Part shown: piece after piece, positions 18,343 through 25,734 of the stretch
Numbering within the stretch: position 1 is the stretch's first letter
Layout of the letters: each line of letters opens with the position of its first letter
Source of the DNA: Luteimonas sp.
Lineage (GTDB): Bacteria > Pseudomonadota > Gammaproteobacteria > Xanthomonadales > Xanthomonadaceae
Direction of reading: 5' to 3'
Assembly (NCBI GenBank): GCA_014380115.1
Contig: JACMKK010000173.1
Span: 1 to 33,516, forward strand
DNA: 33,516 nucleotides
The notes under the pieces: generated by a model
The model's input: the letters and a program-made list of their open reading frames with translations, nothing else
What the model was told of the DNA's origin: nothing
The model's database searches: none
Position numbers and translations under genes: made by a program

Positions 18343-20505
18343 ATGAAGAGCACTCGGTTTGCCTTGATCACCACTGCCGCGTTGATGATCGCCGCGTCGA
18401 TCCCGATCGCGGCACTCGCGGGCGAAGTGTGCGAAACCACCGACGGCACCGTCACCACACCTCCCACCAGCACCGCTGCGGGCGTGAACGCACTCGCCTG
18501 CGGCAATTCCAACACAGCGTCCGGCGAAGGCAGCACCGCCGTCGGCAACGCCAGCGTCGCGTCCGGTGACGTCAGTCAGGCGTTCGGCTTCGGCAACAAG
18601 GCGACGGGCGAGCACAGCACCGCGATCGGCGACTCCAATACCGCGGCCGGGGCCTACAGCACCGCGGTCGGCCGCGCCAATTTCGCCACTGGCGACCTCA
18701 GCCAGGCCATCGGCATCGGCAATTCAGCGTCCGGCGCACGCAGCACCGCGGTCGGCAGCTTCAATGTCGCGTCCGGTGACTTCAGTCAGGCCGTCGGCTA
18801 TGGCAACACCAGCGACGGGCCCGAGAGCACGGCCGTGGGTTTCGCGAACTACGCCGGCGAGTTCGGCACGGCCATGGGCAACAACAACACGTCTTCCGCT
18901 TTGAACAGTACGGCCGTGGGCAGCATGAACACCGCCGAAGGCCAATTCAGTCAGGCCTTTGGCTACAGCAGCAAGGCGTCGGGCGAGCACAGCACCGCGG
19001 TCGGCAGCTCCAACACCGCGGCCGGGGCCTACAGCACCGCGGTCGGCCGCGCCAATATCGCCAATGGCGTCTTCAGCCAGGCCATCGGCGCCGCCAACAC
19101 CAGCGACGGGCCCGAGAGCACGGCAGTGGGTTTCGCGAACTACGCCGGCGAGTTCGGCACGGCCGTGGGCAGCGGCAATAGCGCGACTGGTTCGGTCGCC
19201 TCCGTATTCGGCCGCTATAACAAGGCGCCCGGCGCCCTAAGCCAGGCCATGGGCAACTACAACACGTCTTCCGCTTTGAACAGTACGGCCGTGGGCAGCA
19301 TGAACACCGCTGAAGGAATTTTCAGCCAGGCCATCGGTAACTACAACACCGCTACGGCGGGGAACGGCACCGCAATCGGCGTGGCCAATACTGTGCAAGT
19401 GGGCGCATTGAACAGCTCGGCTTTCGGCGGCTTCAACACGGTCCAAGGCCGCGACAGCGTGGCGACAGGCCGCAGCAATCAACTGGCCGGCAGGAACAAC
19501 ATCGGCCTCGGCACCAGTAACGTCGTCAGCGGCGACTGGGCCACCGCGATCGGCACCAGCAATCAGGTTTCCGGCTTGAACGGTATCGCGCTGGGCAATT
19601 TCGCCGTGGTGACGGCGACCGACAGCGTAGCGATCGGCACGAACTCGGTCGCCGATCGCGAAAACACCGTGTCGATAGGCGCTAGCAGTGGCACGTATCG
19701 GCAGCTCGTCAACCTTGCCGCAGGCGTGCAGGACAACGATGCAGTCAACGTGGCGCAGTTGTTTCCGTTCGCCACTGCGCTCGGCGGTGGCGCCAGCTTC
19801 AGCGGCGGCGTGCTGTTCGCGCCCACCTATACGATCCAGGGCAGCAACTACAACAACGTCGGCTCTGCGTTCGCCGCCGTCGACGCGCGCCTGACCACGC
19901 TCGGCAGCCAGGTCGGGACGCCGGGACCGGCCGGTCCGCAGGGACCAGCCGGTCCGCAAGGTCCTGCCGGACCGCAGGGCCCAACCGGTCCACAAGGACC
20001 GGCCGGCTCAGGTGGTGCGGATCCGGAGGCCGTGCGTTATGACGACGCCAGCCATGCCCAGGTCACGCTCGACGGTGCGGACGGCACGCGCATCAGCAAT
20101 GTCGCCGACGGCGTCGCCAACACCGACGCTGCCACTCTCGGCCAGGTCCAAGCCGGCGATGCGACCACGCTGCACAGCGCGAACACCTATACCGATCAGA
20201 AGTTCGCATCCCTCGACCTCGAGTTCGGCAATCTGCGAACGGAAATCAACGACCGCTTCGAGCAACAGGACCGGCGCATCGACAAGGTCGGCGCCATGGG
20301 CGCAGCGATGGCCAACATGACCGCTTCGGCCGCCGGCGTACGCACCCAGAACCGGATCGCGATCGGCGTCGGCAATTACCGCGGCGCCAATGCGCTGGCG
20401 TTCGGCTACCAACGCGCCCTCTCCGATCGCGCCGTCGTCACGATCGGCGGCGCCTTCAATGGCGACGACAGCCAGGTCGGCGCAGGCGCGGCGTTTGGGT
20501 GGTGA
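18343..20505 (+). CDS. Trimeric autotransporter adhesin (YadA-like head repeats, collagen-like segment, YadA anchor)
   Basis: Signal peptide; many SxAxG head repeats; [32 protein letters not shown]-terminal anchor [62 protein letters not shown]. Confidence 0.9.
19915..20007 (+). repeat. Collagen-like G-P-Q/G-P-A triplet tract inside the autotransporter
   Basis: About 10 consecutive Gly-X-Y triplets in frame. Confidence 0.85.
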
Positions 20506-20580
20506 TGCCGTCGGGCGGGCACGCTGGTCGAGTGTTCGCCTCGATTCGAGGTTATTGCACCGCGCCGCAATCCGCGAACC

Positions 20581-20624
20581 GTGCAAACAAACGAGCCCGA
20601 CACCGCGCGCTCGGGAGCGTGCAC
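20581..20624. terminator. Hairpin between convergent autotransporter and ankyrin genes
   Basis: GTGCA..CCCGA-N10-TCGGG..TGCAC dyad; minus-strand GTTTGTTT follows the inner stem. Confidence 0.35.
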
Positions 20625-20629
20625 TCGAG

Positions 20630-21388
20630 CTAGGCGTCGCGCGGCGGGTGGACGTATCGATTGGGCACATTCCCCAAAGGCGGAGCTGTCCTCCCCGCTG
20701 CCTGGAGCAGGACGCTTACGTTGGCATACACGTCGCGTTCGCTGCGATGCATCTGCGGAAGCAGCCCGAGTTGAGCATAGGAGACCGGAGTCACATCAAA
20801 ACAGGTCGTCTCCCAGTCGAAACCCTTGCCCCAGGTAATGCCAGCGAGAAGGATGTCGGCCCGCGCTCCTGCGTCCAGCAGGAGTCGCATCAGGGGTTCG
20901 GAGCGGTTTCCGCTGGAGTTCACCGTATGAAACAGCGGCGTGTGACCGTTCATTCCGAAGTCGTCCACCGCCGCACGCGCATCGACTGCCGCACCCGCCG
21001 CGAGCAGCACGCCGGCGACCTTCGGGTGGCCGTACTCCGCAGCCACGTGCAGCAGCGAGGCGCCGACCAGCGGGGTGAATGCCGAGGCCATGCTTGTCCT
21101 GTGTTCAAGAAGAAGCGGATTGCCTTGTAGTGCGGCCGAAAGCGACACCGCGTCGTCAAGCAGTACCGGAGCGATCAACGGATCGTCGAGCTCGGCGCCA
21201 TGCTCGAGGAGCAAGCGAAGGCATTCCGGGAATCGGTCGGATCTCGTGTACATCTCGAGGAGTGAATTGACCGGCGTCTTTCCCCGTATCGGAGCTCGCA
21301 CGTCGAAACCGGCCTGCAGGACAGCGTGAATTCGCTCGACGGAATGCAATTCAAACGCAACGAGAAGTTCTTCGTAATGGCTATTCAC
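20630..21388 (-). CDS. Ankyrin-repeat protein
   Basis: ECLRLLLEHGAELDDPLIAPVLLDDA..., GASLLHVAAEYGHPKVAGVLLAAGAAVDARA, GHTPLFHTVNSS..LMRLLLDAGARADI: ankyrin consensus; start re-set to GTG 21388 because the track ORF start (21490) reads through an attC-like site. Confidence 0.75.
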   Translation of the reverse strand: MNSHYEELLVAFELHSVERIHAVLQAGFDVRAPIRGKTPVNSLLEMYTRSDRFPECLRLLLEHGAELDDPLIAPVLLDDAVSLSAALQGNPLLLEHRTSMASAFTPLVGASLLHVAAEYGHPKVAGVLLAAGAAVDARAAVDDFGMNGHTPLFHTVNSSGNRSEPLMRLLLDAGARADILLAGITWGKGFDWETTCFDVTPVSYAQLGLLPQMHRSERDVYANVSVLLQAAGRTAPPLGNVPNRYVHPPRDA

Positions 21389-21396
21389 ATGTGCAT

Positions 21397-21456
21397 GTCC
21401 AACGCGTGGGTTAATCCGAGCCGTGATCGGCTTCGGCTTGAATGAACTGTTCGCGC
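21397..21456 (-). other. attC-like integron recombination site (59-base element)
   Basis: Minus strand CGCGAACAGTTCATTCAAGCCGAAGCCGATCACGGCTCGGATTAACCCACGCGTTGGAC; perfect right core GTTGGAC (GTTRRRY), TTCATTCAAGCCGA/TCGGATTAA arms; left core degenerate (only AAC kept). Confidence 0.6.
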
Positions 21457-21493
21457 CTGCTTCCAGCTCTAGTAGATCACACGTTCGCACCGC

Positions 21494-22279
21494 TCACATC
21501 TGACGGAAGTGATGCAAATAACTGCGGCTTACGGGCAGCACTTCTTCACGACCCTTTAGGTGCACGTGCGCGGTTTCGTTGAGGCCGCGCGTGACGTGGC
21601 TGATCGCGCGTAGGTTCACCACCACCGAGCGATGCACCTGCACGAAATGCGCGGCGTCGAGTTGCGCGGCCAGTTCCTTCAACGGCGTACGGATCAGGCC
21701 CTCGCTGGCCTTGCCGCCGTCGCCGCGCCAGGCGACCAGCGTGTACTTTTCGTCCGAGCGCAGGAAGTCGATCTCGTCGACGGACACCAGGCGCAGCGAC
21801 TGCCCGACCGAGACGCGGATCCAGCGCAGCGGAGCAGGCCCATCGTCCTTGCGCAGGCGCGCCGCAAGTTGCTCCAGCAGCGCTTCGGCGTCGTGCACCG
21901 GTTGCGCGGCGCGCAGTCGATCCTGCAGACGCGCCACGGTGTCGGCCAGGCGTGCCGGCTCCACCGGTTTCACGAGGTAATCCAGCGCGCCCTGCTCGAA
22001 GGCCTGGACCGCGTACTGGTCGAACGCGGTGACGAACACGAGGTGCGCGCGACGACCGATAAAACGCGCCGCCTCCACGCCGGACAGGCCCGGCATATGC
22101 ACATCGAGGAAGCAGATATCCGGCTGCTGCGCCTCGAACTGCTCGACCGCCTCACGGCCGTTACGCGCCTGGGCGACCACCTGTAACCCGGGCCAGGCCT
22201 CCGCGAGCAGGCGCGTGAGCTGCTTGCGCAGCAGCGGCTCGTCGTCGGCGATCAATGCGGTCGGGCGCTGGTCTGTCAT
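21494..22279 (-). CDS. LytTR-family response regulator
   Basis: Receiver TALIADDEPLLRKQL, DICFLDVHMPGLSGVEAA, YLVKPVEPARL; C-terminal LytTR domain IDFLRSDEKYTLVAW, FVQVHRSVVVNLRAI, LPVSRSYL. Confidence 0.93.
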   Translation of the reverse strand: MTDQRPTALIADDEPLLRKQLTRLLAEAWPGLQVVAQARNGREAVEQFEAQQPDICFLDVHMPGLSGVEAARFIGRRAHLVFVTAFDQYAVQAFEQGALDYLVKPVEPARLADTVARLQDRLRAAQPVHDAEALLEQLAARLRKDDGPAPLRWIRVSVGQSLRLVSVDEIDFLRSDEKYTLVAWRGDGGKASEGLIRTPLKELAAQLDAAHFVQVHRSVVVNLRAISHVTRGLNETAHVHLKGREEVLPVSRSYLHHFRQM

Positions 22280-23358
22280 GTCGCGACCCGCCGTGCGGGG
22301 AATTCGATTTCCGCGGAGACGCCGCGCGGTTGCAGCGAACTCAGTCGCAACTGCGCATCGCCGCCGAAGGCCAACTGCAGGCGTTCACGCAGGTTCGAAA
22401 GACCGGTGCCCTGCCCGGCGCCGGCCTGCTGTATGCCAACGCCGGTGTCGATGACCTGCGCGCGGCAACGTCCGTCGCGCACACGCACGTTGACCTCGAT
22501 GCGGCCGCCCTCCTCGCTCGGATCGATGCCGTGGCGCACGGCGTTCTCGACCAATGTCAGCAACGTCATCGACGGACAGTTCAGCGCGAGCGCGTCGTCA
22601 TCGGCGTGCAACGTGAACTGCAGACGGTCGGGCATGCGCATGTGCATCACCTCGAGATACGCACGCACGAGTTCGAGTTCCTGGCCCATCGTGGTGGCCG
22701 GCTCGTGCAGACGCGGCACTGCAGCGCGCAGGTAGGCGATCAGACTGCCCAACACCGTCGAGGCCTGTGGTGAGCCTGACTCGACCAGCTCGCGTACGTT
22801 CGCCAGTGTGTTGAACAGGAAATGCGGCTCGACCTGCGCCTGCAGCAGCCGTAACCGGGCGTCGAGTGCATTGCGCTCGTATTCGCTGCGCTCGAGATCG
22901 AACGCCAGCGCCTGTCGTTGCGCCTCGCCGCTGATGTGGCGATACAGCGCCGACATCGCGATCCAGGGCGTCAGCAGGATACCGACCCCGGTGAGCAGCC
23001 CGAAGCCGCCCATGCGGTCTCCGTCCTGCGTCCAATGCACCGCGTCGCCGAACGTCGTCAGCGAATAGACGACCGCCACCGCGAACGGCATCACCAGCGC
23101 CACGCCTGCGACCTGCAGCGCCCAGCGCGCCAGCCAGCGCGGCAGGCGTGCCGGCCGGCGCTCGAACAGCCCAAACACCAGCAGCTGGATGCAACCGACG
23201 AACACCATGCGCACGAACAACACGCCCCACGATGCCTGCCAGCCCGGCAGCAAAAGAATGCTCAGTACCAGGCTCGTGATCAGCACGACGCGCAGGCGCC
23301 GCCAAGCCAGCACACGCGCGAGGCCTCGTGGTTTGCGTGGAGCAGCAGCTAGCGCCAT
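22276..23358 (-). CDS. LytS/YehU-type sensor histidine kinase (His_kinase family), membrane
   Basis: N-terminal TM helices; LQAQVEPHFLFNTLANVRELVESGSPQAS; LVENAVRHGI; GTGLSNLRERLQLAFG; ATGA overlap with regulator. Confidence 0.93.
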   Translation of the reverse strand: MALAAAPRKPRGLARVLAWRRLRVVLITSLVLSILLLPGWQASWGVLFVRMVFVGCIQLLVFGLFERRPARLPRWLARWALQVAGVALVMPFAVAVVYSLTTFGDAVHWTQDGDRMGGFGLLTGVGILLTPWIAMSALYRHISGEAQRQALAFDLERSEYERNALDARLRLLQAQVEPHFLFNTLANVRELVESGSPQASTVLGSLIAYLRAAVPRLHEPATTMGQELELVRAYLEVMHMRMPDRLQFTLHADDDALALNCPSMTLLTLVENAVRHGIDPSEEGGRIEVNVRVRDGRCRAQVIDTGVGIQQAGAGQGTGLSNLRERLQLAFGGDAQLRLSSLQPRGVSAEIEFPARRVAT

Positions 23359-24999: not shown

Positions 25000-25734
25000 A
25001 TGAGATCGCAGCAACCGAGGAGTAAACTCGTGAAGTGGATCCACATCATCGCTGGACTACTCGCGCTCGCTTCAGGAGCGGTCGCGCTCTACGCCGCAAA
25101 AGGATCGCCGCTGCATCGCAAGGGCGGGATGGTCTTCGTCATCGCGATGCTGGTACTCACAACCAGCGCCGTGCTAATGGCGACGTTCCTGAGTCCGAAC
25201 AGGCTGAACGTGGTGGCCGGCGTGACGACCTTCTACCTGGTCTGCACCGCGCTGCTCACGGTGCGGCGTCCCGTCGAGCAGGCGCGTGGACTGGCGACGG
25301 GATTCATGCTGCTCGCGCTGGCGACAAGCGCGTATGCCTTCACGCTGGCCTTCGAAGCGGTGAACAGCGCGAGCGGCAAGGTGGATGGCATGCCGCCGCA
25401 GCCGCTGGTCGTGTTCGGCGTGATCGCCCTGTTGGGTGCGCTTCTGGATGCGCGCATGTTATGGGCCGGCAGCCTTCAAGGCGCCCATCGGCTCGCCAGG
25501 CATCTGTGGCGCATGGGCTTCGCGATGTGGATCGCGACCGCATCATTCTTCCTGGGCCAGGCCAAGTTCTTTCCTGAGCCGATTCGCAAGTCGGGCTTGC
25601 TGGCGATCCCGGTCTTGCTGGTGCTCGTAGTGATGCTCTATTGGCTGCTGCGCGTGCTCTTGAAGCGGCGCAATCCGGCTGCTCTTCCGATGAGGTCCGA
25701 CGCAAGCGGCTCCACGTTGACGACCCGGCCCTGA
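25000..25734 (+). CDS. Multi-pass membrane protein, DUF2306-like
   Basis: WIHIIAGLLALASGAVALYAAKGSPLHRKGGMVFVIAMLVLTTSAVLMATF: H-G..HRxxG pattern and several TM helices; GTG at 25030 is an alternative start. Confidence 0.65.
   Translation: MRSQQPRSKLVKWIHIIAGLLALASGAVALYAAKGSPLHRKGGMVFVIAMLVLTTSAVLMATFLSPNRLNVVAGVTTFYLVCTALLTVRRPVEQARGLATGFMLLALATSAYAFTLAFEAVNSASGKVDGMPPQPLVVFGVIALLGALLDARMLWAGSLQGAHRLARHLWRMGFAMWIATASFFLGQAKFFPEPIRKSGLLAIPVLLVLVVMLYWLLRVLLKRRNPAALPMRSDASGSTLTTRP

Follow-up and report, generated by a model that had tools for sequence, protein, structure and literature searches.

The question raised by this locus is how an integron attC-like element came to lie, apparently alone, between the gene of a LytTR response regulator and an ankyrin-repeat gene, and whether the latter gene arrived as an integron cassette. 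A first-pass annotation had read the element as a 59-be site and the ankyrin gene as a captured cassette, and had proposed a covariance search in the window and genome-wide, a look-up of intI and a comparison of the LytTR 3' flank. Here, the window denotes the whole stretch of 33,516 nucleotides that was analysed. The features around the element are as follows.

20506 to 20629, no strand: gap of 124 bp from the ankyrin stop codon to the convergent YadA-like gene, the place to expect a 3' attC; none was found
20630 to 21388, minus strand: ankyrin-repeat gene, 252 aa, GTG start at 21388 (Pfam Ank, E 2.3e-10), probably a former cassette gene
21389 to 21490, minus strand: in-frame extension of the ankyrin ORF through the attC (ORF 20630-21490), not conserved among homologues and probably untranslated
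21397 to 21455, minus strand: attC of 59 nt, of the type of the 60-nt attC of same-genus integrons (43.0 bits, E 3.3e-10)
21494 to 22279, minus strand: LytTR response regulator gene, Response_reg and LytTR domains
22276 to 23358, minus strand: sensor histidine kinase gene, overlapping the LytTR gene on the same strand, His_kinase and HATPase_c domains

The attC site and its predicted folding

On the minus strand, positions 21455-21397 read CGCGAACAGTTCATTCAAGCCGAAGCCGATCACGGCTCGGATTAACCCACGCGTTGGAC. This stretch has the R''-L''-L'-R' layout with inverted repeats and a GTTRRRY core, and it can be divided into the following parts.

21449 to 21455, minus strand: R'' outer core CGCGAAC, degenerate with respect to RYYYAAC (model alignment)
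21434 to 21442, minus strand: L'' box TTCAAGCCG with a bulged C at 21440 (model alignment and genus consensus)
21419 to 21432, minus strand: terminal hairpin AGCCG-ATCA-CGGCT, preceded by a bulged A at 21433 (model alignment and predicted folds)
21411 to 21418, minus strand: L' box CGGATTAA, with one G.A mismatch against L'' (model alignment)
21397 to 21403, minus strand: R' core GTTGGAC, conforming to GTTRRRY (direct sequence)

For the covariance search we used a model made from 33 canonical 60-nt attC sites that adjoin integrases in same-genus genomes, with the window site left out. Searching the whole window with filters off, we found that the site scores 43.0 bits and matches 60 of 60 model positions, with the bulged C, the bulged A and the hairpin all aligned to the model, and that the runner-up in the window reaches 13.5 bits. 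Within a search of its own genome the site has an E-value of 3.6e-8. The E-values of this model are rough because its calibration was short, yet the margin is wide. The same model gave no match at E up to 1 in 12.8 Mb from three members of the order with no integrase over the family cut-off (G040, G047 and G053). Rfam at its gathering thresholds had no match in the window. The high full-length score together with the clean background argues that the site is, as judged from its sequence, a genuine attC of the type found in this lineage. The 59-be layout on the minus strand, the GCCG-ATCA-CGGC hairpin and the GTTGGAC core, all named in the first-pass annotation, are borne out by the sequence and the model alignment, and so is the degeneracy of the left core.

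The site has kept its GTTGGAC core, the hairpin, both bulged bases and the spacers. In the model alignment three of the seven R''-R' pairs are broken, and one L''/L' pair is the G.A mismatch. Since CGCGAAC pairs with the R' core at just four of seven positions, we class the site as a decayed attC. With DNA energy parameters, the recombination-ready fold of the bottom strand has a predicted probability of 3.4e-6, and the same value ranges from 0.07 to 0.28 for five good sites of the genus. Among the four sites on contig C140 of the host's own genome it falls from 0.08 to 1.8e-5. These predictions suggest that the window attC would have little or no activity.

Integrons in the host genome and in the genus

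The host assembly comprises 3.64 Mb in 574 contigs and is 88% complete. The look-up of intI that had been proposed was run with the family TIGR02249 and brought no integrase over the family cut-off in this assembly, the best hit having 75 bits against a cut-off of 265. Among relatives, 41 of 61 genomes have an integrase over the cut-off, among them 25 of 36 from the same genus. The host genome itself carries a cluster of four canonical attC sites of the same type as the window attC on C140, two attC sites on C56, and lone, mostly degenerate sites on seven further contigs (C342, C357, C328, C93, C440, C242 and C175). Such attC sites were found in all 41 genus genomes searched. Lone sites also occur in genus genomes that consist of one contig, for example at C1:159235 of G007 and C1:3737112 of G010.

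It could be supposed that the window is a misbinned contig, as close matches to its LytTR and peroxiredoxin genes are lacking in the genus. We rejected this idea; the tetranucleotide profile of the window correlates with those of C140, C93, C175 and C328 at 0.94-0.95, and hence the window fits its own bin.

Several other observations were made on the attC sites of this group. A second attC type, GGCTAACC...CCGCTTAAGTCAAACGTTAG, is present in clusters on C55 (L130) and C429 (L133) of the host genome; the tetranucleotide profiles of these contigs are less window-like (r 0.79-0.82), and they stem from either a further integron or contaminating DNA in the bin. The attC-like sites at L132:3068-3119 (C357) and L135:11246-11301 (C328) have common downstream DNA, GTCGATCAAGGCGCACATCTCGG..., and are therefore both part of a dispersed repeat. 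An inverted repeat of the type GGCCGCTTTTGGCCAAAAGCGG follows directly after some attC sites (L129:2615-2675, L131:5689-5748 and, in G007, L146), and may be a non-coding cassette that recurs in this group.

The ankyrin gene, its neighbours and its homologues

The ankyrin GTG lies 8 nt past the GTTGGAC core, as the first-pass annotation had stated. Upstream of it, the frame continues without a stop across the attC as far as a GTG at 21490; this accounts for the odd N-terminal peptide that the same annotation had taken for a translated attC, correctly so. The GTG at 21388 is probably the true start, since the alignment with homologues does not extend further upstream than about this point. At the 3' end of the gene we likewise found what had been noted before: no second attC is present in 20450-20750, where the best model score is 3.7 bits, and the idea of a decayed attC in the gap towards the YadA-like gene was dropped on that score. 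With a G/TTRRRY border shortly before its start but no attC of its own behind its stop codon, the ankyrin gene can at most be a former cassette. We also considered the long C-terminal tail of the window protein as a mark of a 3' deletion; this was abandoned, as tails vary within the family.

The stop codon of the LytTR gene is 38 nt from the attC. No promoter- or terminator-like pattern was matched between the LytTR and the ankyrin gene, and hence the ankyrin gene is likely to be transcribed by read-through from the kinase-LytTR operon. The comparison of the LytTR 3' flank revealed that the junction with the ankyrin gene is missing in six LytTR orthologues of 57-75% identity, and neither an attC nor an ankyrin gene was seen downstream of them, which argues that something was added at the window locus. 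These orthologues belong to other families and their 3' flanks are unrelated to that of the window; for this reason they provide no empty site that joins exactly at the border.

As to the wider surroundings, the YadA-like gene that converges on the ankyrin gene (18343-20505) encodes a trimeric autotransporter adhesin with head, stalk and anchor domains. A membrane protein gene lies upstream of the kinase gene at 25000-25734, and in G049 a relative of it immediately follows the LytTR orthologue, so that gene order around the kinase-LytTR operon is fluid.

Within the order, the ankyrin gene is present in two of 399 genomes, namely the host and G038. Outside the order, homologues of 56-79% identity occur in Planctomycetota, Cyanobacteria, Betaproteobacteria, Alphaproteobacteria, Acidobacteriota and others; none was found in plasmids or in viral contigs. 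The closest homologue (L007, 79%) has no attC alongside, and the same is true for most of the others. The homologue in G038, which belongs to another family of the order, also has no attC beside it. G038 possesses a large cassette array next to intI (L093-L095, C1:1583-1637 kb); its attC sites are mostly of 90 nt and seem more decayed the further they lie from intI. We do not claim that its ankyrin gene is part of this array, as the array reaches to about 1637 kb and the gene is located at 1649 kb.

Two homologues from cyanobacteria of the genus Aphanothece are of particular value. DNA homology between L025 and L014 is confined to the stretch from GCGTTAG, 12 nt ahead of the ATG, to the attC core region immediately behind the ankyrin stop codon; the flanks on either side are unrelated to each other. 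Each locus (L025:3990-4805 and L014:3975-4785) holds a lone complete ankyrin cassette, the two having 91% DNA identity. The attC of L025 starts 2 nt after the stop codon (25.8 bits, E 2.7e-6 over 2 kb), and that of L014 is decayed. The L025 attC is about 81% identical to sites a few kb from the integrase gene in both Aphanothece hosts. Both genomes encode a full integron integrase (454 and 455 bits), which is on a different contig from the ankyrin cassette in either case. Given the bounds of homology, the unrelated flanks and the integrases, the ankyrin gene in the two Aphanothece genomes is one exactly bounded cassette unit. No clean empty site was found for the Aphanothece copy, as relatives share just pieces of its flanks.

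The 5' border of the window gene is of the same kind as in Aphanothece: the window has GTTGGAC, 8 nt and GTG, and Aphanothece has GTTAGGC (L025) or GTTAGCC (L014), 5 nt and ATG. Among 19 other homologues, one has a GTTRRRY within 46 nt before the start.

Origin of the locus and its meaning

In arrays, IntI joins cassettes at G/TTRRRY, and each attC belongs to the cassette that precedes it, the next cassette opening with TTRRRY. The cut is expected after the G of the R' core, and a gene a few nucleotides past R' is therefore what such a join should look like. On this basis, we consider the window feature to be probably the remnant of a stranded and decaying integron cassette behind the LytTR operon, with the ankyrin gene most likely a stranded gene cassette. 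The window attC would have closed an earlier cassette at its 3' end, and the gene of that cassette would since have been lost, given that just 38 nt separate the site from the LytTR stop codon. The DNA from TTGGAC onward would be a second cassette with the ankyrin gene, and the 5' join would be an old cassette border. The cassettes may have been brought in by IntI acting on a secondary (attG) site of the genome, or they may have been left behind when an array was rearranged. Later the ankyrin cassette would have lost its 3' attC and the upstream site its R'' pairing, so that the gene would now be fixed in the chromosome.

This origin is favoured by the full-site covariance match against a clean background, by an attC type shared with the integrons of the genus and the C140 cluster, and by the lone sites elsewhere in the host and in finished genomes of the genus. 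Moreover, the gene has exact cassette borders in two genomes with integrases, it is rare in the order yet scattered over phyla, and GTTRRRY is seldom seen before other homologues. The LytTR orthologues with neither attC nor ankyrin gene point in the same direction, and the poor predicted folding is consistent with decay. The capture of the ankyrin gene next to the LytTR gene that was proposed at first is thus supported by the attC score, by the missing junction and by the absence of the gene from 397 of 399 genomes, and gains further support from Aphanothece. Against it stand the ankyrin 3' end with no attC, the host genome with no integrase over the cut-off, the lack of an empty site in a close relative, and the closest and most other homologues, which have no adjoining attC.

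Alternatively, the ankyrin gene may already have been in place by another route, with a cassette fragment consisting of the attC alone inserted before it, so that the 5' join is no cassette border. Such a course of events would account for an attC at the 5' side only and agrees with the homologues elsewhere that mostly have no cassette borders, including that of G038. However, it needs a chance fit of the attC position to the gene start, and the distance from core to start is close to that in the Aphanothece cassettes (8 against 5 nt); we therefore regard it as rather unlikely. It is very improbable that the site is still a live attC at which IntI could insert cassettes or mobilise the DNA behind it: the core for cutting, the bulged bases and the hairpin are intact, but R'' pairing and one L pair are lost, the predicted folding probability is minute, no integrase over the cut-off is present, and with no 3' attC the ankyrin gene is not excisable as a unit. 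The hairpin just after the last gene of the LytTR operon might also suggest a terminator, or a hairpin arisen by chance. This reading is in practice already refuted by the covariance score, which stems from sequence-specific unpaired positions as well as from pairs; the lack of a terminator-like match with a T run and the empty 12.8-Mb background also speak against it.

Returning to the stranded cassette, lone attC sites of this kind are already known. Single attC sites without an integrase have been described as SALINs, the one-site form of CALINs (PMC12690207). The window site is best read as a SALIN, called by a genus-specific covariance model rather than by that of IntegronFinder: exactly one attC lies within cassette distance, the next match in the 33.5-kb contig being the one of 13.5 bits, no integrase over the cut-off adjoins it in the 88%-complete assembly, and the gene is in a cassette-like position. 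It differs in that the gene follows the attC instead of preceding it and in that the attC is decayed; a larger distance from the gene to its 3' attC does not explain this, as no 3' attC was found. In the same order, about half of the Xanthomonas genomes have CALINs away from the integron locus, counted with a threshold of two attC sites (PMC12444791). These attC clusters away from the integrase resemble C140 of the host, whereas the window has one site and would not be counted. Loot et al. 2024 (Nat Microbiol) described the insertion of cassettes at attG sites in the genome, as reported in PMC12444791 and PMC11023631. As far as it is presented there, it likewise places cassette genes away from attI and arrays, but a single insertion leaves the attC 3' of the inserted gene, whereas in the window the attC comes first and the gene after it, and the search for an empty site found none. 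The Aphanothece cassette is of the same family (65-66% protein identity) and has a GTT border a few nucleotides before the start as well; its attC is located 3' of the gene, in contrast to the window, which keeps a 5' attC only. We found no published ankyrin-repeat integron cassette in the open-licence literature.

The view of how integrons work is unchanged by the present case. Stranded cassettes are usually counted only where at least two attC sites cluster. Here, one decayed attC together with an intact cassette elsewhere can reveal that a gene, by now an ordinary part of the chromosome, was once carried on a cassette. The ankyrin family offers a concrete, testable example: its borders are exact in cyanobacteria, and one copy is stranded in an integron-rich order. 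We suggest tentatively, and with more doubt than confidence, that this family may travel across phyla as an integron cassette, be deposited outside integrons and then become fixed by loss of attC, and that here it is parked behind a kinase-LytTR operon, from which it would be transcribed. If this is true, lone decayed attC sites, missed by two-site thresholds, would mark many such fixed genes in the genus.
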